DNA from: a virus
IMG/VR virus record: IMGVR_UViG_3300017971_000337
Coordinates: 1 to 54,448 of that record
DNA length: 54,448 nt
Strand: one strand, 5' to 3'
Under the pieces are notes generated by a model. The model saw only the letters and a program-made list of their open reading frames with translations. It did not search any database and had not been told where the DNA came from. Position numbers and translations under genes: made by a program. Each line of letters starts with the position of its first letter. Within the stretch, counting starts at the first letter, position 1. Positions 13,134-33,501 of this stretch are shown one piece after another.

Positions 13134-15395
13134 CTACTTTAATAAGGTATCTTCACTAAATAAGTCTGCTCCCATCCTTCTAGCTACATCATTGAGCCTG
13201 GGAACAACTGATTCAGCTACAAATTCATCGCTCATAACATTCCCAGAAATGTTTATATTGACATCTGGAGTCCTTTGTCCAGCTGTTGGGTCTTGATTGA
13301 GGGCACGAAGTAGCCCTGCATTCTGTCTTGTTGCTTCCGCTGTCATAACAGCTTCATTAGAACCTATATAGGCAAGACTATGGTCGTTAGGTACATATCC
13401 TGATTCAAACTTAGGAACATGTCCAGTCCTATATGTTGGAGGTTCAGGCTTCGGGGGAAGAGGCTGAGCCTTTATTAACTGTACTTGCTTAGCACCAAGC
13501 CCGCCGACTAGAGCCGCGAGCATAAAATTCAATGGAGGAAAGGCGGATGCCAATGCTTTCGTGACAGCTTGTGCTGTATTGATAAGAGCTGCAACGATAC
13601 TTATCTTCTTCCCTGATTTGGCTTGTTCATATTGGAGTAAAGCTGTACGATATGCCCTTTCAGCATCCAGCTTTTTCTTTTCTCGTTCGTATTTTTTATC
13701 AATGGCTTCTCTAGCAGCTGCTCTTTCTTCATCATTCATTTCAGAATTTTCAAGGTTCTCGACTTCTGCTTCGTACTGTTCATTTAGTGCATTCATCCTA
13801 GCGTTCAGTTCCAGATTCAGGTGCGCCATCCTATTCTGATATCCCATTGCATGTATATTTTGAATCTGACTTGCGAGGTCACTAGTGATAGCAAGAGTTT
13901 GACCGGCTATATTTGTAAAGTTTTTTATCTCGAGTTCTTCTTTCTTCTGTGCATAAGCCTTGTCTATAGCACTAAGTTCCTCCTGATGTCCCTTGTACAT
14001 CTCCTTCATCTTTTCATATTTTATTCTTTCCGCTTCGAGTTCAGCTCCAGACCTATCTCCTATATATGCTAGGTATTGACCGAGGTCAGGTTTTGGCGGA
14101 GCCGGTCCCTTTGGACCTTTGTCTGGTCCTCCACCAGGAGACTTTTTCCTTATTTTATCAAGGGTTTTATCATATTCTTTCGTCTTTCCATTGATACGGT
14201 CAAGTTCATTTTGATAATCTTCAAGAACCTTAGACACAGACATATATCCATCGGCGACACCCTGTTGGGCATCAGCAAGTTTCTGTGTTTCGTCTCTCCA
14301 TTTTCCAAAGATGTCAAGTTCTATACGACCAAATCCCATATTGATAAGGTCCTGCACCTTTTTGCCCTGTCTATGGAGTCTATATAGCCCTTGAGTGTAC
14401 TGTTCCAGAGAAACATTTCTTTCTTCCGCGTAACCTTTCACCTTCCAACGAAGTTCTTCGACCACCCTCATTTGCTTTTCTAAGTCTTGAACTTTGTTTT
14501 CTTTAGAAAGCCAGGTGTCTAATAGGCGGATAAGAGTCGCGACAGAAAGAATAGCTTTAGAAACTTGCCTTAAAAATCCTATCAGTATCCCGGAACCACC
14601 TGTATCAACACTCTGGAATGCTTTGACAAGTTGTCTTAAGGAAGGTATAAAAAGTTTTCCTACATCTTCATAGAAATCTCCAAGAGTGTTCTGAAGGGCT
14701 TGCCAGCCTGTTCCACTTTCTCTAAGAGCCCTTGCAACTCCACCGAATTGTGTTTGTAATTCTCCCAAGATAACTTTCTGAGCTGAAGCTACATCGCCGG
14801 TTGCAACGAAACCTTTAATCATGTCCACTTGCGTCTCAGATAGTTGAACCCCAACCCTGCTAAGAGCCGCGACACCTTTCACTGGGTCATTGAGAGCTTT
14901 TCCAAGTTGTATAGCTGAGCTCTTAAGGTCTGTTCCCATTGCCGCAGACATGTCCAACATGATTTCTGTGGCGGCGGGAAACACATCCTTACCAATTTTA
15001 GTAAAGGTCAATAGTAGGTTTTGACCCATTATAGTTGTTTCATCACCGAAATCTGTAACAGCCTGGAGGTCAGAAGCCATCTTCTTAACTTCTTTTGCGG
15101 TCAGCCCAGCTGCATTCTTTGTACTCTTAAGAACAGCATTCAATTGGGCTTCGGCTTTCACCTGTACCATCGTAACTTCAGCGACCTTCTTGAATATTTT
15201 TGTCAAAGCAAGAGCGCCGACGGCAACTGCCGCAAAACCTGCCTTTAGACCGCCCAGGGACGACCTCATACCTTTCGTAGATTTCTTGGCTGTTTTTTCA
15301 AGATGCTTAATCTTCTTTTCAGATTCCGTCATCTTAGCTTTGAGTTGTTTATTCTCAGCCTTTAGATGTAGTAGCAGTTCGTTTCCTTTTGCCAT
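13134..15395 (-). CDS. tail tape measure protein
   Basis: The product is 753 residues. The N-terminal coiled coil (residues 1-45, Lys/Glu-rich) is followed by hydrophobic segments (AGFAAVAVGALALT at about 52-65) and a TP901-type tape-measure core with GKALNDPVKGVAALSRVGV at about 150-170. A long coiled coil at about 480-580 follows, then a hydrophobic patch near 620-640. The protein sets tail length and helps DNA passage; at roughly 0.15 nm per residue it predicts a tail near 110 nm. Its ATG overlaps the stop of the frameshifted chaperone extension (TAATG), the canonical arrangement for this module. Confidence 0.9.
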   Translation of the reverse strand: MAKGNELLLHLKAENKQLKAKMTESEKKIKHLEKTAKKSTKGMRSSLGGLKAGFAAVAVGALALTKIFKKVAEVTMVQVKAEAQLNAVLKSTKNAAGLTAKEVKKMASDLQAVTDFGDETTIMGQNLLLTFTKIGKDVFPAATEIMLDMSAAMGTDLKSSAIQLGKALNDPVKGVAALSRVGVQLSETQVDMIKGFVATGDVASAQKVILGELQTQFGGVARALRESGTGWQALQNTLGDFYEDVGKLFIPSLRQLVKAFQSVDTGGSGILIGFLRQVSKAILSVATLIRLLDTWLSKENKVQDLEKQMRVVEELRWKVKGYAEERNVSLEQYTQGLYRLHRQGKKVQDLINMGFGRIELDIFGKWRDETQKLADAQQGVADGYMSVSKVLEDYQNELDRINGKTKEYDKTLDKIRKKSPGGGPDKGPKGPAPPKPDLGQYLAYIGDRSGAELEAERIKYEKMKEMYKGHQEELSAIDKAYAQKKEELEIKNFTNIAGQTLAITSDLASQIQNIHAMGYQNRMAHLNLELNARMNALNEQYEAEVENLENSEMNDEERAAAREAIDKKYEREKKKLDAERAYRTALLQYEQAKSGKKISIVAALINTAQAVTKALASAFPPLNFMLAALVGGLGAKQVQLIKAQPLPPKPEPPTYRTGHVPKFESGYVPNDHSLAYIGSNEAVMTAEATRQNAGLLRALNQDPTAGQRTPDVNINISGNVMSDEFVAESVVPRLNDVARRMGADLFSEDTLLK

Positions 15396-15649
15396 TACTT
15401 TTTTATCCTAAAATCCTTGGAATTTTTCTTAGCTTTGTTCTCACTCTCTTTGAGTTCTTTCTCTTTTATGACATTGTACTCTGTTCCGCGAATATGTCTA
15501 AGACTTCTTTGGGATATGGTTTCTCTGAGTACTTTGGCATAACCACCTTTTTCTTTACTGTCTTCGAAGATTGAGTAGGTGGCGAGGACTTGCTTTTCCT
15601 CGGTTGTTCTTCGCCTATGAAATTCTTCATTAGTGCCCCCAAGTTTTTT
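15395..15649 (-). CDS. frameshift extension of the tail assembly chaperone (gpT-like part of a gpG-T fusion)
   Basis: The -1 frame relative to the chaperone gene is open from the slippery site to TAA at 15397-15395, which overlaps the tape-measure ATG. It has no start codon context of its own. If ribosomes slip after codon 163, the fusion would be about 245 residues: 163 shared plus 82 new. The new part is protein-like and highly charged, beginning LGGTNEEFHRRRTTEEKQVL and ending in a Lys/Glu-rich helix. Lambda G and GT and many siphoviruses use exactly this arrangement to make the minor chaperone that binds the tape measure. The slippage itself is inferred. Confidence 0.75.
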   Translation of the reverse strand, partial: KKLGGTNEEFHRRRTTEEKQVLATYSIFEDSKEKGGYAKVLRETISQRSLRHIRGTEYNVIKEKELKESENKAKKNSKDFRIKK

Positions 15650-16131
15650 TTAACTACATCAAAGTTGAACACAAATAGTAGAAACAATAGGTGAACAACT
15701 TCATCGCCCTTCATAATCTTCAGGGCTTTCTTTGCTTTTTTCTTTGAATGTTTGAGCTTTACGGTTCCTCTTTTCTTTGTGGATACAAATACCCACTTGC
15801 TAACAAATTCAATTGTGTCCTTTTGAAACTTTCTAAAGTCTTCATTGGCTTCAAATATTTTTACATGAGCGACTATTTTTTCTATCGCGCCCGGATCTCT
15901 ATAGTTAAGTGCGGTCAAGAAATCTAAATCAATAAAGACTTTGTAATACTCTTGCAACATATAAGACATGTCGTGTAAGAACTTATCGTATTCACCAAAG
16001 TAGACGGGAGTTGTAATAAGCAAGTATTTATTGACCTTGAACACGAAAGGCTTTTCTCGGATTATATCAAGGTCAGTAAATTTATCTTGCAATAATTCTT
16101 TAAGGCTGTATTTATCTTTAGAATTAAACAT
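15466..16131 (-). CDS. tail assembly chaperone (gpG-like)
   Basis: The product is 221 residues. The start is placed at ATG 16131, four bases after the tube-protein stop; the longer frame would overlap the tube gene by 68 bases. Residues 1-165 are helical with an acidic/aromatic pattern (FEANEDFRKFQKD). The zero-frame tail after the slippery site is low complexity (KSKSSPPTQSSKTVKKK), as in other chaperones whose zero-frame ends matter little. The position between tube and tape measure, plus the -1 frameshift signal, identifies the role: holding the tape measure while tube subunits assemble. Confidence 0.8.
   Translation of the reverse strand: MFNSKDKYSLKELLQDKFTDLDIIREKPFVFKVNKYLLITTPVYFGEYDKFLHDMSYMLQEYYKVFIDLDFLTALNYRDPGAIEKIVAHVKIFEANEDFRKFQKDTIEFVSKWVFVSTKKRGTVKLKHSKKKAKKALKIMKGDEVVHLLFLLFVFNFDVVKKNLGALMKNFIGEEQPRKSKSSPPTQSSKTVKKKVVMPKYSEKPYPKEVLDIFAEQSTMS
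15643..15649 (-). promoter_or_regulatory. programmed -1 ribosomal frameshift site A AAA AAC
   Basis: In the chaperone frame the codons GTT AAA AAA AAC TTG contain the heptamer A AAA AAC, a standard X XXY YYZ slippery sequence. It sits within a run of eight A and is followed by a G-rich stretch (TTGGGGGC). Slippage by -1 leads into an 82-codon open frame ending exactly at the tape-measure start. Confidence 0.75.
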
Positions 16132-16135
16132 GAGC

Positions 16136-16735
16136 TTAACTTGAACTTGCAGCAGCTGGCCACGCCCAGAATGCAATGTTGTCCTGAGTAGCATATGCCG
16201 CATTGTAGTCCCAAGTTGGATTTGTTGTTAAGGGAGTAGAATCCTTTTGAGCTATTCCTTTGAAAGGAATGGACGCATGCTCTTCCCCGCCCAACATAAC
16301 TTCGAAAGCCTCAGCGGTGATCTGGAGCCTTCTTATGTAAAGCCGAAGTTCGTTACCGTCTACAGTTTGCCCGATTAAAATCATTGATGGAAATACCGGC
16401 GATGGAGCCGTAGATCCCATCATAACCCTGCGATATGTACCAGAAGTATCATATCTTCTTTGTGAAACAAGAGCAAGAGTTTCTGGTTGTAACTGTTTTA
16501 AAGAAGTTTCAATTTCAAATTCCTGATTGATAATGTCCCTTCTTATTTCAGTTCGTGGGATACCAGTCTTATAAATGGCATACTCCACAGTTTGGCGCCA
16601 CGCCTTTTCTGCATCCAAATAACCAATGCCAAGATCCCCATTTCCATCATGAAAATTGAGATAGACGGCAGGGTCATAGAGAAACATATAATTGTCGTCA
16701 TCGCCAAAATTAGTAGTTGTTATGTTTAGACTCAT
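16136..16735 (-). CDS. major tail (tube) protein
   Basis: The product is 199 residues and beta-rich with a compact acidic N-terminus (LYDPAVYLNFHDG) and a conserved-looking centre (FEIETSLKQLQPETLAL), typical of siphovirus tube proteins. A strand followed by EHASIPFKGIAQ near residue 160-175 resembles the final beta-sheet of tube subunits. AAGGAG lies 7 bases before the ATG. It directly precedes the chaperone pair and tape measure, and there is no sheath gene. It sits immediately downstream of the glycan cassette with only a 20-base gap, so the cassette separates it from the tail terminator, its usual neighbour. Confidence 0.8.
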   Translation of the reverse strand: MSLNITTTNFGDDDNYMFLYDPAVYLNFHDGNGDLGIGYLDAEKAWRQTVEYAIYKTGIPRTEIRRDIINQEFEIETSLKQLQPETLALVSQRRYDTSGTYRRVMMGSTAPSPVFPSMILIGQTVDGNELRLYIRRLQITAEAFEVMLGGEEHASIPFKGIAQKDSTPLTTNPTWDYNAAYATQDNIAFWAWPAAASSS

Positions 16736-16755: not shown

Positions 16756-17076
16756 TTATATTGAGTTCTTAAGGCTTCCAGCCTTATGTAGCTCCAAAAA
16801 TTTTTCGGGTGTGACTCCTTTGTCATCGACATAATAATCACAAGGAGGTTTTCCCATCACTAGACTATGGTATGGAACATTGTATTCTTCCAGAAGGGCT
16901 TTCGTATCCATAAGATGCTTCCAATGTCTACCTGTTTGTACCACTATCGTATTCCCTTGATAGTACAATTCCCTAATGACTGCTATGATTTTCTCCCTCG
17001 CACCTATAAGAGTGTACTTATCCTCATGAAAAGAAGTGAAGAAAATAGTGTCATCCAAGTCAAAACATATATTCAC
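16756..17076 (-). CDS. small HAD-family phosphatase of the glycan cassette
   Basis: The product is 106 residues. HAD motifs are all present: DLDDT (catalytic Asp6 and Asp8) at the N-terminus, the Thr of VVQTGR at about 46-51, Lys in VMGKPPCD at about 73-80, and the acidic pair in YYVDDKG at about 81-87. It lacks a large cap domain, like capsule-locus and KdsC-type phosphatases. It overlaps the synthase gene by 4 bases. By context it could remove phosphate from a nonulosonic-acid phosphate or a precursor sugar phosphate; the substrate is inferred. It is the last gene of the cassette. Confidence 0.75.
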   Translation of the reverse strand: MNICFDLDDTIFFTSFHEDKYTLIGAREKIIAVIRELYYQGNTIVVQTGRHWKHLMDTKALLEEYNVPYHSLVMGKPPCDYYVDDKGVTPEKFLELHKAGSLKNSI

Positions 17077-17888
17077 TTTCTAAGCATCTCCCTCTTTTCC
17101 TTTTCACATTCAAGTATTACTCTACTACCATAAAACCCGAGGGCTTTTTCTGCATCTCTGACCTTTTCAACCATGGAAAACATTTCTGCAGGGTTCAAGG
17201 AACTCTTATGGTCGCTTCCCCAGAGATTCTTATCTAAGGTGATGTGCTTTTCTATCCAGGTTATCCCTGCATATATCGGTAAAATAGTATTGTATATCCC
17301 ATCGTCATGACCGGAATACCCTATCTGCTTCGTGGGATACTTGTTCTGTAGCCAATGAATATAATTCAAGTTCAAGTTTTCTATCTTAGTCGGGTACTCC
17401 GCGACCGAATGGAGTAGTACATCTGGATTCCCAACCTTTACAGCTTGTTCTATTTCCTCTTCAGAACTCATCCCAGTGCTCATAATCACCGTTTTATATT
17501 TTAATCTACAGAAAGCTAACAGGTCAATATCGGTTATAAGAGCGGAAGGTATCTTAACTGTATCACAGAATTCCGCCATAAACCCAGCGCTGTCCAAGTC
17601 CCAGACAGAGCTGAACCATTTTATCTTATGAAGTTTACAGATGGAATTTATCTTTTCGTACTCCCTGTAATTAAATTCTATCTTCTTCTTATACTTTAAA
17701 TATGTCATTTCGCCCCAAGGTGTCGCCCTTGGAAGATCCTTTTTATCATCGGGAACGCATATATCAGGGTTCCTCTTTTGAAACTTAACATAATTGAATC
17801 CAGCGATGGCTGACAAAGTTATTAACTTCCTTGCTACTTCTAAGTCTCCATTGTGATTGATGCCTATTTCTGCAACTAGATTTATCAT
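17073..17888 (-). CDS. neuB: N-acetylneuraminate (nonulosonic acid) synthase, NeuB-like
   Basis: The product is 271 residues. It condenses phosphoenolpyruvate with ManNAc or a related hexosamine to give a nine-carbon sialic-type acid. Signature segments: AEIGINHNGDL at residues 6-16, VKFQKRNPD, VIMSTGMSS near 145, GYSGHDDG near 195, WIEKHITLD near 213, and GSDHKSSLNP near 224. These cover the (beta/alpha)8 barrel active site. The C-terminal SAF/antifreeze-like domain of bacterial NeuB (usual length about 340-360) is missing, so this is a barrel-only form. Four-base overlaps on both sides place it within one translationally coupled set. Whether the product is Neu5Ac, legionaminic or another acid cannot be told. 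Confidence 0.88.
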   Translation of the reverse strand: MINLVAEIGINHNGDLEVARKLITLSAIAGFNYVKFQKRNPDICVPDDKKDLPRATPWGEMTYLKYKKKIEFNYREYEKINSICKLHKIKWFSSVWDLDSAGFMAEFCDTVKIPSALITDIDLLAFCRLKYKTVIMSTGMSSEEEIEQAVKVGNPDVLLHSVAEYPTKIENLNLNYIHWLQNKYPTKQIGYSGHDDGIYNTILPIYAGITWIEKHITLDKNLWGSDHKSSLNPAEMFSMVEKVRDAEKALGFYGSRVILECEKEKREMLRK

Positions 17889-19090
17889 TTTACATTCTCA
17901 TTTATTATGAATTTTATCTTGCCTGAGATGGACTTCTCTAGCCTGTCCACATAATTGAATTTTACTTTCAGCCCTTTGCATATCTCCAAGACTACTTCCA
18001 TCAACTTGTCTTCATCCGCGAAACCGTATGTATCCCCTTTAACAATATTAACTGTAATGAGGTTGTCCTTCTGCACTAGTTGAAAACATTTATAGTCTAT
18101 GAAAGTTCCATCAGACTTAGTTACATGAGACATGTGATGTAATAAGAATGATGGAGACACCAGCCCTTCTTTAGAAACTATAAAGTCGTTGTCCCTTCCC
18201 TGAACCTTTATAATTGGAAGCTCTCTCCCACAGGAACACTTCTTATCAGTTCTAAATAGCTTATCTCCATTCTTATACCTTATAAACGGTGAAGCTAAAT
18301 TCCATATATCAGTTACAATCATGTTATCTTCTTCGTCTGATTGTAGAATAGCCCTTTCCATTGTTTCATGCATCCCTTCTTGTCGTTCACAGTCCCATGC
18401 ACTGGAACCTCCGTCACAACAAACATATTCTTCGAACACCTTTCCGTGAAAAGCCAGCTCTATTGTCTTTCTTACTTCCGGGTAGAGCTGTTCTGCTATT
18501 AAGTTTATAGAAGGTATCTCTATTCTATAGTTGTTATCAATAATCCAATTCGCTAGGATGTATGCTGTTGATACATAAGACCGTAACTGTACAGGCTGAA
18601 AAGCCCTTATATCGTCTAATGTGCGCCTTATATTCCGCCTTTCTACATCACCCTGTATAGTTAATAAGAGCTTTCCTTTTCCTACACTCCCTCGGGCAGA
18701 ACAGACAACCGCTCTCTTGTCTTTTGACTGGTCATAACCGCTCCATATCCATCCACGATTATGCTTCTTAGCTCTCATATCCTTCGTCAAGTTGTCTTCA
18801 TGGTATATAAGAGGCTCGCCTGTACTACCTCCAGTCCTCATGTTAGTGCTTATATGCTTCTTATCAACCCAATCATTATATTGTTGAAGCTCCTTCTTTG
18901 TAATCACTGGAAGCTTTTCCAAGTCTTCAATCTCTTTTATACTGTTTATGTCAATTCCATGTTTATTATACAGCTTGTGATAGCCTCGCACATTAAAGTA
19001 TGCATGCTTTACAATCATACGCATCAATTCAGTCTGGAAGCTTCGAAGCTTTTCGTAACTCCAATATTGCGTTTCCAATAGGTCAATCAA
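17885..19090 (-). CDS. PaaK/CapK-like adenylate-forming enzyme
   Basis: The product is about 401 residues, starting at a TTG (19090) that has AGGAG 8-9 bases upstream; a farther TTG at 19129 lacks a site. The protein matches the phenylacetate-CoA ligase/CapK class: helical N-terminus with HAYFNVRGYHKLY, a Ser/Thr/Gly-rich ATP loop MRTGGSTGEPL near residue 85, and a later ELPIIKVQGRDND segment resembling the adenylation hinge. CapK-type genes are frequent in polysaccharide clusters. It may activate a carboxylic acid for acylation of an amino sugar, or act in another activation step. The substrate is unknown. It overlaps the GT2 stop by 8 bases. Confidence 0.75.
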   Translation of the reverse strand: MIDLLETQYWSYEKLRSFQTELMRMIVKHAYFNVRGYHKLYNKHGIDINSIKEIEDLEKLPVITKKELQQYNDWVDKKHISTNMRTGGSTGEPLIYHEDNLTKDMRAKKHNRGWIWSGYDQSKDKRAVVCSARGSVGKGKLLLTIQGDVERRNIRRTLDDIRAFQPVQLRSYVSTAYILANWIIDNNYRIEIPSINLIAEQLYPEVRKTIELAFHGKVFEEYVCCDGGSSAWDCERQEGMHETMERAILQSDEEDNMIVTDIWNLASPFIRYKNGDKLFRTDKKCSCGRELPIIKVQGRDNDFIVSKEGLVSPSFLLHHMSHVTKSDGTFIDYKCFQLVQKDNLITVNIVKGDTYGFADEDKLMEVVLEICKGLKVKFNYVDRLEKSISGKIKFIINENVK

Positions 19091-19790
19091 TTCCCCTTCT
19101 CCTCTTAGCTTCTCGAATAGCCATATCAAAATAATGTCTAGCCTCTATGTGATTGCCAGCTATTCGCGTGGAAATCCCTTTGTCTGTGTACCTGTAAAAA
19201 TACAACTCTTTGTCCAAGTGTGCAAGTCCACCGACCTCTTCCATCTTCAATGTTATGTCCCTGTCCGCTGCTCTTAATTGTTTTGGGTTAAATCTTGCGG
19301 ACTTATTATAGTAGTGCTTACTGAACACCTTGAAATGACTAATAGCATGTTCATCGTACAGTATTGAACCACCTTTAGGAATCCTATTCCTCTTAACCTT
19401 AAGAACTTCTAAGTTTTTATCGCAATGAAAATAGTTAGAAAACATCAGACCACACATAGAACATTTCTTTGCGAACGCAAACATTTCTGCCAGTGCATCA
19501 TTAGTAAGTACATCATCACTATCCAGGATACCTATTAACTTTCCCTTCGCCTTCTCGAAAGCTATAAGGTGTCCATTAGACACTCCCATATTAGTTGGCA
19601 TCTTTACCAGGGTTATCCTATCGTCCTTGAAACTGTTTACAACTTCCACGGAATTATCTGTGGAACCGTCATCTACAATTATCAACTGCCAATTTTCATG
19701 TGTCTGTTCTAATACAGACCTTATGGCTTGACCGATATATTCGCCCTTATTATAATTCGTCATAGAGATAGAAAACAGATTATCGTCCAT
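19083..19790 (-). CDS. family 2 glycosyltransferase (GT-A fold)
   Basis: The product is 235 residues. The N-terminal FSISMTNYNKGEYIGQAI, IIVDDGSTDNS at about 36-46 and GILDSDDVL at about 86-94 (the DxD-type metal/nucleotide site) are diagnostic of GT2 inverting glycosyltransferases. No transmembrane segment follows, so it is a soluble enzyme. It overlaps its neighbours by 11 and 8 bases. The donor and acceptor are not predictable. Within the cassette it probably adds a hexose or hexosamine to the glycan that carries the nonulosonic acid. Confidence 0.85.
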   Translation of the reverse strand: MDDNLFSISMTNYNKGEYIGQAIRSVLEQTHENWQLIIVDDGSTDNSVEVVNSFKDDRITLVKMPTNMGVSNGHLIAFEKAKGKLIGILDSDDVLTNDALAEMFAFAKKCSMCGLMFSNYFHCDKNLEVLKVKRNRIPKGGSILYDEHAISHFKVFSKHYYNKSARFNPKQLRAADRDITLKMEEVGGLAHLDKELYFYRYTDKGISTRIAGNHIEARHYFDMAIREAKRRRGID

Positions 19791-20697
19791 AAAACCTACT
19801 CAATTTTCCTTGATTTGAATGTATAACTTTACTTATCGTTCTTGGATATTCGCAGATACCGTGAAATATCGCCCATGAACATGGACATATTTCTGATTCG
19901 CACTTCCCTTTCCTATGTAACTGTATAGTTTCAAGGTCGTCTGGGAACACCCCAAACTCTATATTGCCTTTCCCACCACAACTTCTTATCTTCCAATTGC
20001 TGTCCACTACTAAAAAATCGACACCACTAGAACATTGTCTACCCTTAACTCCCCATCGTTTATAAGATTCATTCCAATGTTCCCAGGATATGTACTCACT
20101 GTTTTCTAGCTTATACATAATGTCCTTTGGAGGAAACACTAATCCATCTTCATAAGGGCTTAACTTCAAATCCCTGTAGTGCATCATCTTTATCTTAAGG
20201 TTGAATACCATTGCCATCCAAAGTATATGGTCTATGTGCTCATAGTAACTTGGATGTAGAACCATCATCGGCCAAACAGTTATGCCTTTATTCAAAAATC
20301 TTCGAGCCCTCTGGAATACCACCAGAACTTTGTCCAATCGCATGAGCTCCTTCCAATGAATTGAAAACCATATTGCCAGGTTGTTTGAATCTGGACACTC
20401 CAACATCTTGTCCCATTTATTAGCCAACAAGTTTGAATTCACTACGACTGGGTACTCTTCCATCAAGCCTGTGAAAATATTAAAAGCCCAGGGATAATTT
20501 ATTGGTTCCCCGATACTGCAAAAATGAAAACAAATATGTTCGTTCGGTACTACTTCAGCCAACTTCTTAAAGTCTTCGACCGTAACTTTTTTAAATGGAG
20601 CTTTTCTTCTTTTGTCAGTCTTCCGTACATAACAGTATTCGCATTTCATGTTACAAGGTGCAGGGAATTCAGTTAGAATTATTGACCTTGATTCCAT
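19780..20697 (-). CDS. radical SAM enzyme with SPASM-like C-terminal cysteines
   Basis: The product is 305 residues. The CX3CX2C cluster (Cys15, Cys19, Cys22; APCNMKCEYCYV) binds the 4Fe-4S cluster that cleaves S-adenosylmethionine. The region CFHFCSIGEPINYP fits the GGE-like SAM-binding segment. A second Cys group near the C-terminus (CSSGVDF, then SCGGKGN, CESEICPC and GIC) could bind an auxiliary cluster, as in SPASM/twitch enzymes. It overlaps the CapA-like gene by 29 bases. In this cassette it may modify a sugar or a virion protein side chain; the reaction is unknown. Only one in-frame ATG gives an intact motif. Confidence 0.8.
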   Translation of the reverse strand: MESRSIILTEFPAPCNMKCEYCYVRKTDKRRKAPFKKVTVEDFKKLAEVVPNEHICFHFCSIGEPINYPWAFNIFTGLMEEYPVVVNSNLLANKWDKMLECPDSNNLAIWFSIHWKELMRLDKVLVVFQRARRFLNKGITVWPMMVLHPSYYEHIDHILWMAMVFNLKIKMMHYRDLKLSPYEDGLVFPPKDIMYKLENSEYISWEHWNESYKRWGVKGRQCSSGVDFLVVDSNWKIRSCGGKGNIEFGVFPDDLETIQLHRKGKCESEICPCSWAIFHGICEYPRTISKVIHSNQGKLSRFYGR

Positions 20698-21619
20698 CGA
20701 TAATAAGCCTCCTATGTGATTCGCACTCGAAAAAGTTCAATAGGTCTATGTCCTTATCATTATTTATAAAGTCCTTGAGCCACTTTGTGTACTTAATAAA
20801 CATTTCTTTACTATAATGTGCCCACGAAATGTTCCAGCTCTTACTATTTAATGTGTCTAACATCGGCTGTAACTTATAAGGCTGTATATCATTATCAGTT
20901 ATTGTATACCCTGTATGTTCTGTATATTCCGCCTCAGTGTCCATTTTAACGAAATAACCGTAACTACTAAAATTATTTTTGAAAAGGAAATTCCCAAGAC
21001 CATAATAAATAGATTTTCCCTTATAAGTTTCGTATGCAGATGGAACATGGTTGTGATGCCACACTATAAGATCGACACCAAGGTCCACCAGATACCGGCT
21101 AACATATTGTTGATAAGGATTTGGATAAGGAAAACCTTCATTGCCTCCATGTAGAATTACAATTTTAGTTTCTGCTTTACACTCTAAGACCTGTTTGACA
21201 AGCTCTAGCATGTCCCAGGTGAATATAAAACCTTGTCCGCCCTCGTTTTCGCACATATTAAATAGTGCTACACCATCCACTATCAACGGTTCAGGTAGTA
21301 CTCCTAGACAAGCGAAGCCATAATACTCTAACAGGTTACAAGTTTTCGCTAATCCTATGTTACCAAAGTCAAAAGAATGATTGTTAGCAAGGCAACAGAC
21401 TATCCCAGCCTCCAATTTCAATAGGTCTAAATACTTTGGGTCGATGAACAGGTTCGGTCCTTGCTTTTGCCTTGGATATGTATTGTCCAGGCTCCCTTCA
21501 AAATTAGTTACAAACAAATCGCTATGATTAAATTGATTATAAAATTTTCCATACACTTCTTTCGGGTCTACACTATTCAAATGAACTGGATAAAAGTCCC
21601 CTGTAAAAATTATTTTCAT
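20669..21619 (-). CDS. CapA/PgsA-like metallophosphatase-fold protein
   Basis: The product is 316 residues. It matches the capsule-synthesis CapA family (calcineurin-like fold): FTGDFYP at 5-11, VTNFEGSL at about 37-44, CLANNHSFDFG near 75, KIVILHGGNEGFPYPN near 151, and VWHHNHVP then YGLGNFLF further on. These supply the usual Asp/Asn/His metal ligands. There is no N-terminal membrane anchor, unlike poly-gamma-glutamate CapA, so it is cytoplasmic. Overlaps of 4 and 29 bases place it in the coupled cassette. CapA-type proteins occur in polysaccharide and polyglutamate loci, but their chemistry is not settled, so no reaction is claimed. Confidence 0.8.
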   Translation of the reverse strand: MKIIFTGDFYPVHLNSVDPKEVYGKFYNQFNHSDLFVTNFEGSLDNTYPRQKQGPNLFIDPKYLDLLKLEAGIVCCLANNHSFDFGNIGLAKTCNLLEYYGFACLGVLPEPLIVDGVALFNMCENEGGQGFIFTWDMLELVKQVLECKAETKIVILHGGNEGFPYPNPYQQYVSRYLVDLGVDLIVWHHNHVPSAYETYKGKSIYYGLGNFLFKNNFSSYGYFVKMDTEAEYTEHTGYTITDNDIQPYKLQPMLDTLNSKSWNISWAHYSKEMFIKYTKWLKDFINNDKDIDLLNFFECESHRRLIIDGIKVNNSN

Positions 21620-22449
21620 AGCTCCTCATAGATATTTATAAATTCTTTAACGATTTGTTTTGGATGCCAATAGGTTTCCATCCATAGCCTATTAGACCTT
21701 CCTATCGCCTGTATATAATCCCTTCCGGCTCCAAGTATTTCCCGAAGACCCTGTTCCAAAGAAGAAATGTGGAGGTGAAAGAAAGGGCTCCCGTTAGAAC
21801 CGCTCACCCTTTTCAATACATCCTCGACCTCTGGACTCATATGGCATATAGTTAATTTCCCAAGAGCTAATCCCTCAAGCCCTGAACGATGAAAGCTCCC
21901 TGTTATACACTCATCGATTATTATGTCACATGTCTGTTTTCTTTTAAGGCATTCGTCCAAAGGAACCTTATTTATAATATCAACTTCTATCTTAAATTCG
22001 TTCTGTATCTTTGTCAGTATCTCCTTTGTTTTTTCGTACCCTTTATTGTTCCAGTTATTTTCATCGGCTATCTTTGACGGGGAATAGCCGATTTTAATCG
22101 GGGTATTTACATTATATAACAGGTTGTATTCTGCTGTTTCAAAATTCAAAACATTCCTAACGACTTTACAATCCTTGTACTCTGGCAATGTCGCGTGATA
22201 CTGAGAGATAACTGTCTTGTCATAAGGGTAGTCTAACATCACTCGTTCTGGTTCTGAATGATATTGTATCAGTTGCTTTCCCTTACAAGTAAAAAAATTA
22301 TTATGAAAATGAAGAATATCACAATCTCTACCATCTAATTCCTTCCCTTTTAATACCTCACTAGAGTGTTCACTATATGTATTTATTGCCTTGGACAATT
22401 CGTCCGGAGCCCACGCTATTGGCGTTTGCTTAACCTGTAAGATTTTCAT
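21616..22449 (-). CDS. GT-B-type glycosyltransferase (GT4-like)
   Basis: The product is 277 residues. The C-terminal half looks like the donor-binding domain of GT-B enzymes: IKIGYSPSK near residue 118, a CDIIIDEC segment, then GSFHRSGLEGLALGKLTICH with the EGLALGKP-type motif that contacts the nucleotide sugar. The N-terminal domain is short (ILHFHNNFF, QYHSEPERV). No membrane segment is present. It overlaps neighbours by 4 and 20 bases. It probably contributes one linkage of the cassette's glycan; donor and acceptor are unknown. Confidence 0.75.
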   Translation of the reverse strand: MKILQVKQTPIAWAPDELSKAINTYSEHSSEVLKGKELDGRDCDILHFHNNFFTCKGKQLIQYHSEPERVMLDYPYDKTVISQYHATLPEYKDCKVVRNVLNFETAEYNLLYNVNTPIKIGYSPSKIADENNWNNKGYEKTKEILTKIQNEFKIEVDIINKVPLDECLKRKQTCDIIIDECITGSFHRSGLEGLALGKLTICHMSPEVEDVLKRVSGSNGSPFFHLHISSLEQGLREILGAGRDYIQAIGRSNRLWMETYWHPKQIVKEFINIYEEL

Positions 22450-23767
22450 TCCTATAAACTACCTCGTCGTGTCCATTTGGTTTAAAGGTACACTTAACCC
22501 AATCCGCTTCATAGTTATAATTGTGGGCGGTTGATATCCCAGGTGTCTGTCTATACGGATCTTTGTTCTTAAAGAAATCAAATCCCATCAAGTGAAGACT
22601 GTTGAAAGTTCCAGCCCAGTATAGTAACCTTATAATTGAAAACCCTGTCGTTGGGATTATCCTATTGATATGGCTGTACTCTCTGAATATTTTATGATCA
22701 TAGAACCATTTTCTTCTCAAGATATATTCTTGCTTTCCTGGTTCAACCTTCTCTTTTATAAAGTGTCTCCAGTATGGATACTTCTTATTACAACATATTA
22801 TTCTTAAGTCGCATGGAACATCCATATTATAGTCTTGTAAATAAGTTGTGGCATGGATATTCGTCTTTTCCCCAGTGTTTTCCGGGTCTATTATGAAAGA
22901 ATTAAATCGTACAACTATATCATAACTGTCTATGTACTCACCCTCACCGCTATCCCTGACCATTCCTGAATTTGCTACACAGATTATATCCTTCTTTCTA
23001 ATGTATTCCCGGAATTCGTTTAGCTCCATAAACTTGAATTGCTTTTCGCGCATTGAATCCACATCCCTTATTTGAATGTTCGGGTCTAACGGTTTTATCT
23101 GTTCTTTGTAGGAACCCTTTATTTCTACTGGAGGTTCCAGCTGTTTCAATTCTTTCGGTGTATCTACATCCAATACATTTCTTATGGGGTAAAAAATTGT
23201 ATCCTTATTGTACAGATTCTTCTTTAAATTCGGTAATTCAAAGACATAAGAAACAAAAATGAAATGACTAATCTCGAACACCTTTGGATAATCTTGTCTA
23301 CGATACAGGTTGTGCTTTACAAGTTGTCTACCTTTTCCGCCTTCTTCTTCATACATATATAAATATGGATGAGTTCCCTCTATGTTCTTTTTACATAGCA
23401 AACTCTTACACTTATTCTGTTCAAAGAACCTTAGAGCGCCTCGTATATCTTCTATCGTACGTTCTGGATATGTTAAGTACAGTAAAACGATTATATCATC
23501 AGGCTTGAGTTTCTTCATTTTGACAACATCCAATAAGACATCCTTTGGATTGGAATCATCTTGATGAACCTTTTTGGTATTCCTATACAATACAGAATAT
23601 CCAACATTCCTAACAAGTTTCAGGATTTCCATGTCATTAGTTGTGATTATGACATTACTCTTGGTCAATCCCTTGACCGATTCCAAAGTGTAATGGATAA
23701 GCTTCCTGTTCTTGAAAGGAATTCCCTTGGAACCTTGTCTAGCCGGTATAACATAATAGACCATCAC
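22430..23767 (-). CDS. fusion of CMP-sialic acid synthetase (NeuA-like) and GT29-like sialyltransferase
   Basis: The product is 445 residues. Residues 1-215 are a cytidylyltransferase of the NeuA family: IPARQGSKGIPFKN at 7-20 binds CTP, LLYLTYPERT lies near 95, and LDVDTPKEL at 199-207 matches the metal-binding end. Residues about 255-445 show animal-type sialyltransferase motifs: motif L (CVANSGMVRDSGEGEYIDS then VVRFNS, about 263-290), motif S (PTTGFSIIRLLYW then LMGFDFF, 372-399) and motif VS (HNYNYE, His415-x4-Glu420). One chain would thus activate the nonulosonic acid with CTP and transfer it. It overlaps neighbours by 4 and 20 bases. The acceptor is unknown. Confidence 0.85.
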   Translation of the reverse strand: MMVYYVIPARQGSKGIPFKNRKLIHYTLESVKGLTKSNVIITTNDMEILKLVRNVGYSVLYRNTKKVHQDDSNPKDVLLDVVKMKKLKPDDIIVLLYLTYPERTIEDIRGALRFFEQNKCKSLLCKKNIEGTHPYLYMYEEEGGKGRQLVKHNLYRRQDYPKVFEISHFIFVSYVFELPNLKKNLYNKDTIFYPIRNVLDVDTPKELKQLEPPVEIKGSYKEQIKPLDPNIQIRDVDSMREKQFKFMELNEFREYIRKKDIICVANSGMVRDSGEGEYIDSYDIVVRFNSFIIDPENTGEKTNIHATTYLQDYNMDVPCDLRIICCNKKYPYWRHFIKEKVEPGKQEYILRRKWFYDHKIFREYSHINRIIPTTGFSIIRLLYWAGTFNSLHLMGFDFFKNKDPYRQTPGISTAHNYNYEADWVKCTFKPNGHDEVVYRNENLTG

Positions 23768-24597
23768 ACCACCTCTTCCATCGGAATGTACTCAAAAAAA
23801 TCTAGTCCACTATCTGGAGTACAACAAATTATTCTGTCCTTCCACGGAAGAAACTTCTTAAACATTTCAATCTTTGCATCACACCATTCTTGATTCAAAT
23901 AATTTTTTCTATTGTTCAGCCCTTCATCATTATAAGAATGAACATTCCCATCATTCGCTTCCAGGTATTCCTTTGTTGGAGGCTTCATGTCAAATCCAAA
24001 TAGGTATATTTTGCTAGCATCCATTATGATTGCAAGGTTTAGAGCGGCGAGCCCGGAAAGGCTTCCGCTGTACAGACCTAGATTATAGTCTGTTTGTGGT
24101 TCTCCTTTATTTATTGCAAATTCAAATGTACTAGAACGGAAATCCTTATGCTTCCACCCTGTTCTATACGCACAGAATATCATGCCTCTATAGTTTTTAA
24201 TTTCCGTCTGAGCTTGTTTCCACATCACCTCGTCTATAAAAAGCATCGCGTCAGCATCAGGGCAATCTTTGACGGAATGATTGAGGACGATTGTAAATTC
24301 TTTCTTAAACCTGTTATGGTCGAAGCCCTTTAAACTTCGTCCACTCCCCACTATAAAGACTTTTTTACCGGTCAATAGCCCTGAAACTTTTTCGGCTGTT
24401 TCCAATTCACCCTGTTCCATCAACCTGTTTACAGTTTCCTTGTCAGGAATGAAGTGTCCTTTCTTAATTAACTTATAACACTCCTCCAAGGGGAGTTGTC
24501 TAAACTCTTTACAGGTCTCGAAGGTTACACTCCTATCGTTATAGAAGTGCGTATAGTATTTCCCTGGTCCGTTATATTGTACTTTCCCAAATATCAT
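23764..24597 (-). CDS. DUF115/GT42-like glycosyltransferase candidate
   Basis: The product is 277 residues. FIVGSGRSLKGFD at 81-93 resembles the GxGPSL nucleotide-binding loop of DUF115/MAF proteins and of the CstI (GT42) sialyltransferases. AMLFIDEVMWKQ follows, then SGSLSGLAALNLAI and KIYLFGFDM near 175-202, in the same order as in those families. MAF proteins move nonulosonic acids onto flagellin Ser/Thr, and GT42 enzymes move sialic acid onto glycans. A second nonulosonic-acid transferase is therefore attractive here, but the family call is by motif only. Its start overlaps the tail-terminator stop by 4 bases, which couples the cassette to virion genes. Confidence 0.65.
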   Translation of the reverse strand: MIFGKVQYNGPGKYYTHFYNDRSVTFETCKEFRQLPLEECYKLIKKGHFIPDKETVNRLMEQGELETAEKVSGLLTGKKVFIVGSGRSLKGFDHNRFKKEFTIVLNHSVKDCPDADAMLFIDEVMWKQAQTEIKNYRGMIFCAYRTGWKHKDFRSSTFEFAINKGEPQTDYNLGLYSGSLSGLAALNLAIIMDASKIYLFGFDMKPPTKEYLEANDGNVHSYNDEGLNNRKNYLNQEWCDAKIEMFKKFLPWKDRIICCTPDSGLDFFEYIPMEEVV

Positions 24598-25067
24598 ACT
24601 GGACCTTCGGAGAAAAATTCTATGGTAGTTTCGGCAGCTGCCACAAAAAATTTATCCTGGTCACCAGTCGCATCAAGTATTTCAATGTTGATTGTAAATT
24701 CTGGAAGGACTCCACGCACTACACCTCCGAGAGTCCTGTCTGATTTAATCGCTTCCCAAAGGTCATCAGAAAAGTCTAAGATACCTTTCTTACCTGTCGC
24801 TGTATGTCCCATGACTGCCCTGTTCATTTCCATAGACCTTGTCGCGAACTGAATAACGATGGGATAGATTTTTCTTTCCATCTGTGTGAAAGGTACATTG
24901 TCCACTTTTTCATAGCGAACACCATCTGGAACCAAGTTCCAAAACGGAAAACGATTTAGCTGAATAAGTTCAATTACATTTTCAGCCGTATGACCGGAAT
25001 CATAAGCATAGTCCAGTCCAGAATAACTGAGTAGTTGCCCGGATAAAGCATTTATCACATCTTTCAT
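24594..25067 (-). CDS. tail terminator / tail completion protein
   Basis: The product is 157 residues. Its size, alpha/beta pattern and position between the gpS-type adaptor and the tail genes fit tail terminators, which cap the tube and join it to the head. The central segment RKIYPIVIQFATRSMEMNRA, then FSDDLWEAIKSD, with a long C-terminal beta-meander, resembles this family. It overlaps genes on both sides by 4 bases. The next gene is a glycosyltransferase-like gene rather than the tube gene, so the cassette was inserted at this boundary without breaking translational coupling. Confidence 0.7.
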   Translation of the reverse strand: MKDVINALSGQLLSYSGLDYAYDSGHTAENVIELIQLNRFPFWNLVPDGVRYEKVDNVPFTQMERKIYPIVIQFATRSMEMNRAVMGHTATGKKGILDFSDDLWEAIKSDRTLGGVVRGVLPEFTINIEILDATGDQDKFFVAAAETTIEFFSEGPV

Positions 25068-25618
25068 TTTTTATATGACTCCAATGATTTTCTTAACCAC
25101 TTATATGTAAAGTTGGCGTGGGTTGTTCCATCATTAAATTTCCTTACATCCATCTTTAAAAAGCTGTTAAGCCTTAACATCGTATATCTAAACAGAGGCC
25201 TCGCAGGTTGGCTTCCGTCCTTTTTCCCATAATGAAATACCATCGCATAAGGATAACCCTTCTTAGAACGAACAACATTCTGGTTCAGTTCCCATGTCAG
25301 GCTCTTAGAGGTTACTTTCTTTTTAGCCTGTTCCATGGAGCCCTTCTTCATAAGACCTGTTCTAACTCCTATGCCCGATGGATAGCCCTTCTTTATTTTC
25401 GCGTCCAAGTATTTCTCGGAAAGCTTCTGCCATTTCTTATGGCTATCTTGTATCTCATCTAGCTCATAGTCAATAAATTCCTTAATTTTTGGGATAACTG
25501 CCAGCCAGAGCGGTTTCGCATCGCCTGTCCCTCGCTGAACTTCTTCCAACCATTTTATAACAGCCTCTTTGCTATCTATGTCTAAGTCTATACTTATCCC
25601 GTCTTTCTTTTCAGCCAT
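25064..25618 (-). CDS. virion morphogenesis / tail completion protein (gpS or Mu gpG-like)
   Basis: The product is 184 residues. The segment KKWQKLSEKYLDAKIKKGYP followed by VRTGLMKKG and, later, YAMVFHYGKKDGSQPARPLF is the hallmark of the phage virion-morphogenesis (P2 gpS/Mu gpG) family: a W..LS..Y...K..G motif, a TG turn, then YA..H..G....ARPF. These proteins act at the head-tail joint. It shares a single base with the upstream DUF1320-like stop and overlaps the tail-terminator gene by 4 bases. The C-terminal basic helix is typical. Confidence 0.8.
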   Translation of the reverse strand: MAEKKDGISIDLDIDSKEAVIKWLEEVQRGTGDAKPLWLAVIPKIKEFIDYELDEIQDSHKKWQKLSEKYLDAKIKKGYPSGIGVRTGLMKKGSMEQAKKKVTSKSLTWELNQNVVRSKKGYPYAMVFHYGKKDGSQPARPLFRYTMLRLNSFLKMDVRKFNDGTTHANFTYKWLRKSLESYKK

Positions 25619-26097
25619 CAGTTTTCAAACCTGTCATCCTTAACATCTTCGTCCGCTCCATCAGGTATAAATCCTTCAACACCTTTCCTTCTATAGAACT
25701 TCTGATTGTAAAGGGTGCTCGTCTTCTTTGGATAAGATTTAACTGTATAGTCGGTTGTCCCATCTGAGATCTTAACCTTTCCTGTCAATACTTTCTCAAG
25801 AAGGGAATTATACATGTCGCTATAATACTGTACATCATCAACATCCTTAACCCTTCTGGAAGCTCCAAAGTAATAGACAAGACTCAGTTCTACTGCCTTG
25901 TATAGAGTCAACATATTCAAAACAGTAGAACTATTTCCTATCGTTGTTATCTGTGCCGAGGTTAGAACATCACTCAAGTCAACTTCTACTGTTTGCTCCG
26001 CTTCTTTTATCCGGTGCCTAAGGTCTGTGTCCAATACCTCAGTGGAATCATCGAATTTCTTATTTGATTTTCTTATGTCGTTAACTGTGCAAGTCAT
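25618..26097 (-). CDS. head-tail adaptor (DUF1320 / Mu gp36-like)
   Basis: The product is 159 residues. An alpha-helical N-terminus (DLRHRIKEAEQTVEVDLSDVL) and a following LTLYKAVELSLVYYFG helix fit the DUF1320/HK97 gp6-type connector fold. The C-terminal 40 residues are Lys-rich and probably disordered. An AGAGGTG site lies 6 bases before the ATG. The gene follows the major capsid gene after a hairpin terminator, so it is likely made at a lower level than the capsid protein. Its role is to link the portal to the tail. Confidence 0.7.
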   Translation of the reverse strand: MTCTVNDIRKSNKKFDDSTEVLDTDLRHRIKEAEQTVEVDLSDVLTSAQITTIGNSSTVLNMLTLYKAVELSLVYYFGASRRVKDVDDVQYYSDMYNSLLEKVLTGKVKISDGTTDYTVKSYPKKTSTLYNQKFYRRKGVEGFIPDGADEDVKDDRFEN

Positions 26098-26110
26098 GTT
26101 TCACCTCTTT

Positions 26111-26139
26111 AAAATAAAGGACTGGCGGTTTCCCGCCAG
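26111..26139 (-). terminator. attenuating terminator just after the major capsid gene
   Basis: Read leftward, CTGGCGG, a GAAA tetraloop and CCGCCAG precede TCCTTTATTTT. The GNRA tetraloop on a GC-rich 7-bp stem and the U-rich tail make a good intrinsic terminator. It lies 12 bases past the capsid stop, inside the late operon. It probably terminates part of the transcripts so that capsid protein exceeds connector and tail proteins, and the stem may also stabilise the capsid mRNA 3' end. Confidence 0.7.
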
Positions 26140-26150
26140 CCCAATAGTGA

Positions 26151-27104
26151 TTAGCCGATAACATTTTGGAGTAAGTACCAGCAGCTCAGGTCAGCTTCAA
26201 GTATATCATAATCCCATTCGGTTATGATTTTCTTTCCCCTCGGGTTAGTGAGTATTTCTTTGGATACCTTCATGCCGTCGTACTGCATGGTCAGTATTCC
26301 AAATACATCCTCTGCCTGAGGTCTTGGAGGTACATAACCTATAAGAATATCTTTGCCCCAAGTTGCAGACAAGCTTCTTGTCTGTCCTTTTTCCGCAGTG
26401 TTATACCTGCCATCGGATATAACTACCCGAAGACCTTTAATAACAGGCGGAAGCCCAACGAGTTGCATTATCTGTCCCTGGAATTGTGATTTCATGTACG
26501 CCATTGGATCGGTGTACTTGATATCCTGTATCCAAGACAGCTTCGCGAAATACAGAGCAGCCTCAAACGGTATAACGATAGTATTCGCCTTGGCTCCTGT
26601 ATTGTCGTATATAGAAGTGACGGCTGTAATAATATCGTCTTCCATTGTTGGAGAGCTCTCATCCAGTCTTCCATTCGCGACAGAATCCACATCCGTGGTA
26701 TTTGTTACCTTAGATGTGTCCGTTAAAATCGCGGCAACCCTTGTCTCATGCTTAAGCTTGAGGCGATGGGTGAGCTTGTTAGTTTCCCTCTGCTCCAGCT
26801 TAATAACTCCTTTCTTGCTCGCGTTCCGGAGTTCCTTTTCTGTTAAGGTGCTTGAGAGGGCTTTCCTGGTTGTTCTATAAGAATAAGGTGTTCCCAGCGC
26901 AAAGTCAACTTCATTTGCAGGGGATCCTTCCGCTTCGTCTGATACCTGGTCCATTGCTCCCTGGTCGTCAACAAAAACATAATCGCTGAAATATTCAACG
27001 CCGACTATTGGAGCTACTACACTTCCAATCAAATTTCCGTTTGGATAAGCGAGTGCTAGATTAGTCAGGTAATCATCGTATCTTACTGTTCCTTTTGTAC
27101 TCAT
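26151..27104 (-). CDS. major capsid protein
   Basis: The product is 317 residues. N-terminal MSTKGTVRYDDYLTNLALAY, the VVAPIVGVEYFSDYVFVDD strand pair, YSYRTTRKALSSTLTEKELRNA, and the C-terminal DILEADLSCWYLLQNVIG fit HK97-fold major capsid proteins of the Mu gpT/encapsulin-like branch (about 300-350 residues, no cleaved delta domain). IVIPFEAALYFAKL and the long E-loop region are also consistent. An AGGAGG site is 12 bases before the ATG. It follows decoration and protease-scaffold genes in the usual order and is trailed by a hairpin. Confidence 0.85.
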   Translation of the reverse strand: MSTKGTVRYDDYLTNLALAYPNGNLIGSVVAPIVGVEYFSDYVFVDDQGAMDQVSDEAEGSPANEVDFALGTPYSYRTTRKALSSTLTEKELRNASKKGVIKLEQRETNKLTHRLKLKHETRVAAILTDTSKVTNTTDVDSVANGRLDESSPTMEDDIITAVTSIYDNTGAKANTIVIPFEAALYFAKLSWIQDIKYTDPMAYMKSQFQGQIMQLVGLPPVIKGLRVVISDGRYNTAEKGQTRSLSATWGKDILIGYVPPRPQAEDVFGILTMQYDGMKVSKEILTNPRGKKIITEWDYDILEADLSCWYLLQNVIG

Positions 27105-27137
27105 AACTTATTTTATCCTCCTTAGATTATGATTGGT

Positions 27138-27563
27138 TTACGACTGGTTAAAGTCGCCGATGTAGTATCGCTGTATTAAAACGGGAATGATGTCACCGGA
27201 CACCCCAGCCTTCATTGCATGACCGAAAATGTAAACACCATCAGAAGTCGTATGCTTGACGCCTACTCCTCCGGTAGATGCAATTATCCTGTCATCCTGT
27301 GCGACTGTCCCACCAAGTTCAACATATGCTACTCCCTCATAGACTAACTGAATCGGGTCGTTCTCAGCATAAGTTGTTTTTCCGTTCTCAGATGCATCAC
27401 CGGTTACGCCGACTGGAAACTGACTTCCAGCTGTCGCGGCAATAACTTCAGTAGCATCACCTGAATCCTTTTGACAAATTCTATAAGGGCTAATAGCAGC
27501 TCCTGCGTTGCAGGGCATCATCTTCTTATCCCTTTCTTCTGTTCTTCCTTCGGCAAATGCCAT
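27138..27563 (-). CDS. capsid decoration / stabilisation protein (DUF2190-like)
   Basis: The product is 141 residues of Gly/Ala/Val-rich beta strands: GSQFPVGVTGDASENGKTTY, IQLVYEGVAYVELGGTVAQDDRI, and a C-terminal IFGHAMKAGVSGDIIPVLIQ. This matches the DUF2190-type beta-barrel proteins encoded just before the major capsid gene, which form trimers or spikes on the shell. An AGGAGG site lies about 9 bases before the ATG. There is no signal or membrane segment. The assignment rests on pattern and position. Confidence 0.7.
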   Translation of the reverse strand: MAFAEGRTEERDKKMMPCNAGAAISPYRICQKDSGDATEVIAATAGSQFPVGVTGDASENGKTTYAENDPIQLVYEGVAYVELGGTVAQDDRIIASTGGVGVKHTTSDGVYIFGHAMKAGVSGDIIPVLIQRYYIGDFNQS

Positions 27564-27587
27564 AAAAAATTTCCTCCTGTCTTAGAT

Positions 27588-29069: not shown

Positions 29070-29079
29070 AATTAACCTC

Positions 29080-31350: not shown

Positions 31351-31362
31351 ATTTGTTTTCTT

Positions 31363-32643: not shown

Positions 32644-32972
32644 CAGTCCTTAACTACTCTGACTGTGATTATGCTGTCCTTCTTTTTCGCTTCGAAGAAA
32701 TCCGGGTAGAGTACTTCTGCCATATCCATGGTGGCTTTATAGCTCAGCCCTTCATTATCAGAATCCATAAATGTCCTAAGGTTCTGTATCACCCTTTCCC
32801 TCTCCTCGATTAAAAACAATTCAAGCCGGGACTGAAATTCTTTGTCCGTATCAAGTACAGCCCTTTCGTCTTCGGTTACACCAGCCTTCTTGTAGGACAT
32901 ATCTTTGTCGAATGTTTTCTTATAGCTGTTAACGACCAGCTCTTTCTTTTCAGTTAGTTCCCGGTTTTCCAT
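32643..32972 (-). CDS. terS: terminase small subunit
   Basis: The product is about 109 residues. The start is set at ATG 32972 (MENRELTEKK). A longer frame to 33053 would add a hydrophobic, Cys/Tyr-rich leader unlike any small terminase, and it overlaps the promoter-like region. MSYKKAGVTEDERAVLDTD reads as a helix-turn-helix, followed by an oligomerisation helix (LIEERERVIQNLRTFM). It recognises phage DNA and recruits the large subunit. An AGGA site is about 14 bases upstream, so the start is the least certain part. Confidence 0.75.
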   Translation of the reverse strand: MENRELTEKKELVVNSYKKTFDKDMSYKKAGVTEDERAVLDTDKEFQSRLELFLIEERERVIQNLRTFMDSDNEGLSYKATMDMAEVLYPDFFEAKKKDSIITVRVVKD

Positions 32973-33498: not shown

Positions 33499-33501
33499 TT
33501 C

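Follow-up and report, generated by a model that had tools for sequence, protein, structure and literature searches.

Glycosylated virions have been documented in few phages. In bacteria, Maf proteins O-link N-acetylneuraminic acid (Neu5Ac) or 3-deoxy-D-manno-octulosonic acid (Kdo) to Ser or Thr residues of flagellin (as cited in PMC7591256), and the N-terminal domain of FlmG binds flagellin (PMC7591256). In mycobacteriophages, glycans are reported at the C-termini of the capsid and tail tube proteins (Freeman 2023, as cited in PMC12619734). Here, we describe a nine-gene glycan cassette on the minus strand, at 16756-24597, of a 54,448-nucleotide virus sequence (IMG/VR record IMGVR_UViG_3300017971_000337), the whole of which is called the window below. 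The genome is of siphophage type, and the cassette is flanked in it by the genes for the tail terminator and the tail tube. Its family matches support a predicted nonulosonate (sialic-acid-type) pathway with sialyltransferase-like enzymes, and it probably encodes a soluble glycan pathway, expressed late, by which a virion protein is decorated.

All nine open reading frames (ORFs) that an earlier, sequence-only reading had placed inside the tail operon are present. They form a single unbroken minus-strand run in which all internal junctions overlap, and the first gene overlaps the stop of the tail terminator gene, as that reading had noticed (Table 1). The overlap between the GT2 and CapK genes shrinks to 8 nucleotides (nt) with the next TTG, which is 39 nt further in and is preceded by AGAGGAGAAGGGG. 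A run of nine genes that are all open and overlap one another, with family matches for eight, cannot be put down to chance, and the proposed co-translation with structural genes is supported. An independent IMG/VR contig, L007 (13,182 bp), matches 20831-34012 at 99.99%; because it repeats the terminator junction, that junction is no assembly error. The ends of the record share a 14-base direct repeat, which fits a complete circular assembly. The G+C content at third codon positions (GC3) is 0.392 in the cassette and 0.387 in the flanking structural genes and, thus, by this measure the cassette is not a recent foreign insert. Across the cassette region, there was no excess of promoter sites, compared with shuffles, or of terminator sites. 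The coding strand has its strongest terminator-like site away from the cassette borders, at 26142-26119, between the gene for the major capsid protein and those for the connectors. This site is a minus-strand hairpin at 26119-26142, just 3′ of the major capsid gene, with 10 pairs, 8 of them G-C, and a T tail, and it likely lowers the expression of all downstream genes, the cassette included.

Table 1. Cassette genes and neighbouring structural genes of the window, in order of transcription; the junction is that with the next gene of the cassette run or its right boundary (negative, overlap).
Feature	Position	Strand	Junction (nt)	Basis
Tail terminator, cassette left boundary	24594..25067	-	-4	157 aa; gene order after neck phrog_26; kept in related contigs; no HMM name
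First cassette gene, GT42/GT29-type sialyltransferase-fold protein (DUF115/Maf superfamily)	23764..24597	-	-4	phrog_4603, GT42 profile, predicted fold
NeuA-GT29 fusion	22430..23767	-	-20	445 aa; CMP-nonulosonate synthetase ~1-210 and GT29-like sialyltransferase ~232-445
277-aa protein	21616..22449	-	-4	blastp relatives in L038, L054, L068; distant homologues in other viral nonulosonate clusters
CapA/PGA_cap-like protein	20669..21619	-	-29	PF09587 8.7e-35; no clear membrane segment by hydropathy
Radical SAM protein	19780..20697	-	-11	PF04055 2.7e-5, below Pfam cut-off; NCBIfam STM4011-like 1.8e-8; CX3CX2C near N-terminus
GT2 glycosyltransferase	19083..19790	-	-47	PF00535 5.4e-29
PaaK/CapK-like adenylate-forming ligase	17885..19129	-	-4	annotated TTG start; PDB phenylacetate-CoA ligase 1.2e-10 (phmmer); NCBIfam
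NeuB-type nonulosonate synthase	17073..17888	-	-4	271 aa; TIM barrel only; PF03102 8.5e-61, residues 22-251
Small HAD phosphatase, candidate nonulosonate-9-phosphatase, last cassette gene	16756..17076	-	+20	phrog_1238 3.8e-21; NCBIfam EcbF-BcbF-like 6.5e-9
Tail tube, cassette right boundary, candidate acceptor	16136..16735	-		C-terminus ...FWAWPAAASSS; position before chaperone and tape measure genes; homologues in further contigs; Ser/Thr tails
Tail assembly chaperone	15466..16203	-		position between tube and tape measure genes; conserved
Tape measure protein	13134..15395	-		phrog_27166 6.8e-39

The first cassette gene is the key gene, a predicted GT42-type sialyltransferase-like enzyme. It matches phrog_4603, 'alpha-2,3-sialyltransferase', at 9.4e-19, and a profile built from its alignment matches the Campylobacter GT42 Cst enzymes (4.7e-6, positions 75-256). 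For its predicted fold, which has a predicted local distance difference test score (pLDDT) of 90, the significant PDB matches, ST8SiaIII among them, are all sialyltransferases (best E 7.6e-5), with modest TM-scores near 0.4. These profile and fold matches agree with the DUF115/GT42-like label given earlier. With the Maf/DUF115 family itself (PF01973, cut-off 34.6 bits), the window protein scores 20.2 bits, below the cut-off, while its homologue in the related contig L009 scores 38.9, above it.

The next gene is, as had been read, a fusion of NeuA with a sialyltransferase, both families scoring above cut-off in one protein. The NeuA part matches PF02348 (5.6e-7, 30.0 bits, cut-off 22.6) and aligns to the solved cytidine monophosphate (CMP)-Neu5Ac synthetase 6ifd in the PDB at 6.9e-13. 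The C-terminal part matches PF00777 (2.6e-7, 30.8 bits, cut-off 23; 32.8 bits for the GT29 domain alone) and contains ICVANSGMVRDSGEGEYIDSYDIVVRFN, which resembles sialylmotif L, and HNYNYE, an HX4E motif. The relatives read have one gene for NeuA and another for the GT29-like protein; their fusion here thus links the two functionally.

The NeuB and HAD labels, at the other end of the cassette, are likewise upheld by the matches in Table 1. NeuB matches NeuB, PseI and SpsE structures in the PDB, and it scores 200 bits with the NeuB model of NCBIfam, compared with 148 bits for the PseI model. The cut-off of the N-acetylneuraminate synthase equivalog TIGR03569 (399.65 bits) was not reached, and no cassette protein reached an NCBIfam equivalog cut-off. 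The C-terminal SAF domain of canonical sialic acid synthases was not found by Pfam in the 271-aa protein, in which PF03102 is the only match; a solved 'sialic acid synthetase' of 290 aa (6ncs) is likewise short. Residues H194 and H215, which we take from the N. meningitidis enzyme to be the barrel metal-ligand histidines, are invariant in 8/8 phage NeuBs compared. In the HAD protein, DxDxT and the other catalytic residues are invariant in 10 copies. From these family matches, the sugar is predicted to be of the nonulosonic-acid type.

For the middle of the cassette, the GT2, CapA-like, radical SAM and PaaK/CapK-like labels are supported, the radical SAM one by its motif together with a Pfam match that is below cut-off. 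By contrast, the 277-aa protein had been labelled GT-B, and this label is not supported: there is no match in Pfam, PHROG, NCBIfam or PDB. Hydropathy gave no clear transmembrane segment in the nine cassette proteins (maximum KD19 1.74), which by this measure are therefore soluble. No membrane protein, lipid-carrier transferase, flippase, polymerase or ligase is found among the nine genes. As lipid carrier, flippase and membrane transferase are lacking, the simplest route for the product would be assembly on an acceptor in the cytosol.

Scans with the tail tube and capsid proteins found nine phages of the same group beyond the window. Eight of them carry a cassette at the same site (G001/L171, G002/L005, G003/L003, G004/L009, G006/L006, G007/L173, G008/L179 and L260), although the L173 contig ends within the cassette, so that its tube is not visible. 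In the ninth, L008, terminator and tube have nothing between them, which makes it an empty site. Sister cassettes, which the sequence-only reading had proposed to look for by hidden Markov model (HMM) search, are thus present at this locus. Together with the window, these same-site cassettes make up nine contigs, called lineage 1 below. Their frame is conserved across 50-60% protein identity, with the GT42-type gene first, NeuA soon after, and NeuB and HAD last, while the middle changes. The four-gene set of L009, GT42-NeuA-NeuB-HAD, is minimal; in L006, neither NeuA nor HAD was called. Among the exchanged middle genes are GT8, methyltransferases, a beta-propeller-like protein, a NeuB-cupin protein and a separate GT29. 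The G003 cassette also has an adenosine 5′-phosphosulfate (APS) kinase (8.1e-43) and an ATP-sulfurylase-like fragment (L180:13738-14886), with two sulfotransferases downstream (one HMM-tested, 1.8e-15), and this tail operon is predicted to encode sulfate activation and transfer. A peptidase M23 gene is second in two same-site cassettes (L171:13374-13808 and L260:1758-2192).

The same frame is found in unrelated phages. In lineage 2, which is also of siphophage type (L010, L011, L019 and L086, four contigs with both flanks seen), it lies between a head-tail adaptor (phrog_1161) and a head closure gene (phrog_1059/25). In L049, it stands ahead of head closure phrog_82, and L200 has a GT42-methyltransferase-sulfotransferase set, without NeuB, between head closure and neck. 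The terminator and tube profiles have no similarity to the lineage 2 group and, consequently, shared terminator and tube genes are not supported between lineages. Glycosyltransferase genes thus recur inside structural modules in lineage 1, lineage 2, L049 and L200, and this placement arose or spread repeatedly. In L190, L192, L223 and L248, a solo GT42-like gene or a multi-domain fusion comes after the gene at the major-capsid position. Three of these are single proteins of 870-1020 aa that join a GT42-like domain to further transferases (L192:9878-12943, L190:7704-10409 and L223:9953-12568), directly after the capsid-position gene in L192 and L190 and shortly after it in L223; that of L192 also holds a methyltransferase and a GT29 domain. 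Residues 1-75 of the first cassette gene product form an extra N-terminal domain that is present in lineage 1 and in L049 and L052 and missing from lineage 2. This domain of about 75 aa has no match in Pfam and, by analogy with the N-terminal domain of FlmG, may bind the acceptor.

Short-type NeuB occurs in at least 489 viral contigs. In a FastTree phylogeny of 83 viral and 63 cellular rows, taken from the closest loci and limited to best hits, one branch with 99% local support splits viral from cellular sequences, and blastp saw no small HAD near cellular NeuBs. Only 3/50,697 GenBank phage records have a NeuB match, none of them a cultured isolate carrying this cassette, and phage collections would therefore have missed this cassette type. 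A tail tube homologue is found in 0/50,697 of these records, and a tail-tube scan of genome contigs from 84,980 species gave no relative. The sequence-only reading knew of no described phage system of such composition. GenBank phage records hold no similar cassette; nevertheless, the cassette is not unique but one member of a widespread environmental-virus kind.

The probable course of events would be as follows. NeuB would condense phosphoenolpyruvate with a six-carbon sugar of the host (of N-acetylmannosamine type, possibly phosphorylated) into a nonulosonic acid, from which HAD would strip the phosphate, and NeuA would form the CMP-sugar. The GT42-type protein would then act in the cytosol, where it would set the first nonulosonate on Ser or Thr of a structural protein of the phage, as Maf modifies flagellin, and the GT29-type domain and GT2 would extend the glycan. 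CapK, radical SAM and CapA would yield a modified or acylated version, variable between phages. The probable benefit is that the particle surface would be hidden or changed, or progeny kept off debris. The sequence-only reading had left the target open among the virion, progeny-coated material and the host surface. A virion protein is now favoured: no membrane or lipid-linked step is apparent, the placement in structural modules is repeated, and late co-translation with tail genes makes such a protein the likeliest acceptor. As to a more general statement, the chances are about even that a widespread, uncultured tailed-phage group makes its own nonulosonic acids with virus-specific NeuB, NeuA and HAD, and sialylates head-tail or tail proteins through GT42/GT29-type enzymes of the structural operon, with exchange of the middle genes, including sulfation and methylation, varying the glycan at a fixed locus.

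The most specific candidate acceptor is the C-terminal tail of the tail tube, for which the following comparison gives a weak indication. The tube could be read in eight cassette phages (the window, L003, L005, L006, L009, G001, G008 and L260), and in each of them this tail contains Ser or Thr: AAASSS, KTGTSSGDLTF, KEGTSSGDLSF, KESASS, KETATSGT, KIGYTPNT, KTGYTPNT and KLGYTPNT. The tube of the empty-site phage L008 ends in AVEQQ, with neither residue. The tubes of L008 and L009 are 77% identical, and their C-terminal change is the largest among nine structural proteins compared, with 0 Ser/Thr in the last 12 residues in L008 vs 4 in L009. Within lineage 1, the tube is otherwise well conserved, and its C-terminus alone varies with the presence of the cassette.

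Several points weigh against decoration of a virion protein. Only one empty-site phage underlies the tube-tail correlation (Fisher p about 0.11), which was for this reason rejected as proof of a tube acceptor. Lineage 2 tubes end without Ser/Thr-rich tails, so that another protein would have to be the acceptor there. Enzyme function is assigned by homology, and the histidine of the HFY-type motif is not kept in all members of the GT42 group. The labels 'tail tube' and 'tail terminator' come from gene order only. Finally, many NeuB loci are on larger viral contigs whose neighbours are not identified, so that the tie to structural genes may be true of only some family members.

Among other explanations, late remodelling of the host surface has some appeal, as CapA, GT2 and EcbF-like HAD are typical of capsule loci, phage-encoded O-acetyltransferases act on nonulosonate capsules, and phages alter host polysaccharide (PMC6586298). 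Nonulosonates would here be added to capsule, lipopolysaccharide or teichoic polymers before lysis, so that progeny are freed from debris or superinfecting phages are excluded. We consider this unlikely, though worth keeping in mind, since the cassette has none of the membrane, lipid-carrier, export, polymerization or ligation functions looked for above, lies inside the structural operons of several unrelated lineages, and has promoters no commoner than in shuffles. It is considerably less probable that the CMP-nonulosonate acts apart from virion structure, as a metabolic or decoy product that scavenges host sugar or counters a nucleotide-based defence. The many large NeuB contigs with unidentified neighbours would fit such a role; nevertheless, a GT42-type transferase is present in those structurally placed sets in which the start can be seen, often together with another transferase, and a transferase needs an acceptor.

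Attachment of the glycan to phage DNA, as a hypermodification, is highly improbable. GT42/GT29 enzymes are, to our knowledge, not known as DNA transferases. The window does contain a gene resembling TET-associated glycosyltransferases (PF20691; 42030-42947) beside a B12-binding radical SAM gene, and the two may work together in DNA hypermodification. However, this pair (42030-44226, plus strand) sits in the divergently transcribed replication half, and the TET-associated-glycosyltransferase-like gene has no homologue in 12 related or cassette-type records, several of which are fragments. The chance that the cassette is a mobile or decaying insert without phage function seems very slight indeed: its variable middle and the HNH and GIY-YIG genes near some copies could be read in this way, but all nine window frames are open and overlapping, the frame is conserved among divergent relatives, and GC3 is like that of the flanks. 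Decoration of a virion protein by a soluble, late-expressed pathway thus remains the reading that we prefer.

Of the structural genes, neck (phrog_26), major capsid, portal, TerL and tape measure have HMM support. The terminator and tube have no PHROG or PDB sequence match, and the tube model was poor (pLDDT 41) and not used for fold search; with HMM-supported neighbours in order, there is little else left for these two genes to be. As listed, the chaperone ORF shares 68 nt with the tube gene, and its start may be further in. Elsewhere in the window, near-perfect palindromes of 44, 28 and 31 bases (35102-35145, 35973-36000 and 36812-36842) are found where the rightward half begins, and at 33457/33590 there is a direct repeat of 42 bases; these palindromes and the repeat are possible origin or regulatory sites.

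Virion protein glycosylation is a known kind of phage modification, and what is new here is the position, the donor pathway and the modular exchange. Text searches of an open-access subset brought up nothing beyond the acetylation of host nonulosonates by phages, with no report of nonulosonates made by a phage. If the proposal is true, exchangeable glycan genes at a fixed place in the structural operon would form the virion counterpart of O-antigen or flagellar glycosylation islands, and would bear on how phage particles are protected or hidden outside the cell and how particle glycans tune adsorption. The candidate acceptor site and the four-gene minimal set are specific and testable.

Compared with known systems, the cassette shares a GT2-type glycosyltransferase with phage O-antigen conversion (gtrABC), but has no flippase or membrane transferase and sits in a structural module. 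Its NeuA-fused domain has the sialylmotif-L-like stretch and HX4E of eukaryotic-type GT29 sialyltransferases, to one of which, ST8SiaIII, the first gene also has a fold match; in contrast to these enzymes, the phage domain is soluble, phage-encoded and NeuA-fused. The first gene resembles Campylobacter Cst-I and Cst-II over the catalytic region, although those enzymes act on lipooligosaccharide, identity is low and the phage protein has an extra N-terminal domain. We know of no nonulosonate synthesis in mycobacteriophage virion glycosylation. That system likewise relies on phage-encoded glycosyltransferases, with glycans at capsid and tail tube C-termini (as cited in PMC12619734), whereas here the sugar donor pathway itself is encoded in the structural operon. 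By analogy, the closest working model would be the Maf/FlmG O-glycosylation of flagellin with pseudaminic, legionaminic or neuraminic acid. Both have a soluble CMP-nonulosonate pathway (NeuB, NeuA-type), a cytosolic transferase acting on a self-assembling tubular protein, which here is the candidate acceptor, and an extra N-terminal domain on the transferase. The cassette differs in being phage-encoded and without flagellin, in a NeuB that lacks SAF and belongs to a viral clade, and in a transferase that is nearer to GT42 than to curated Maf.

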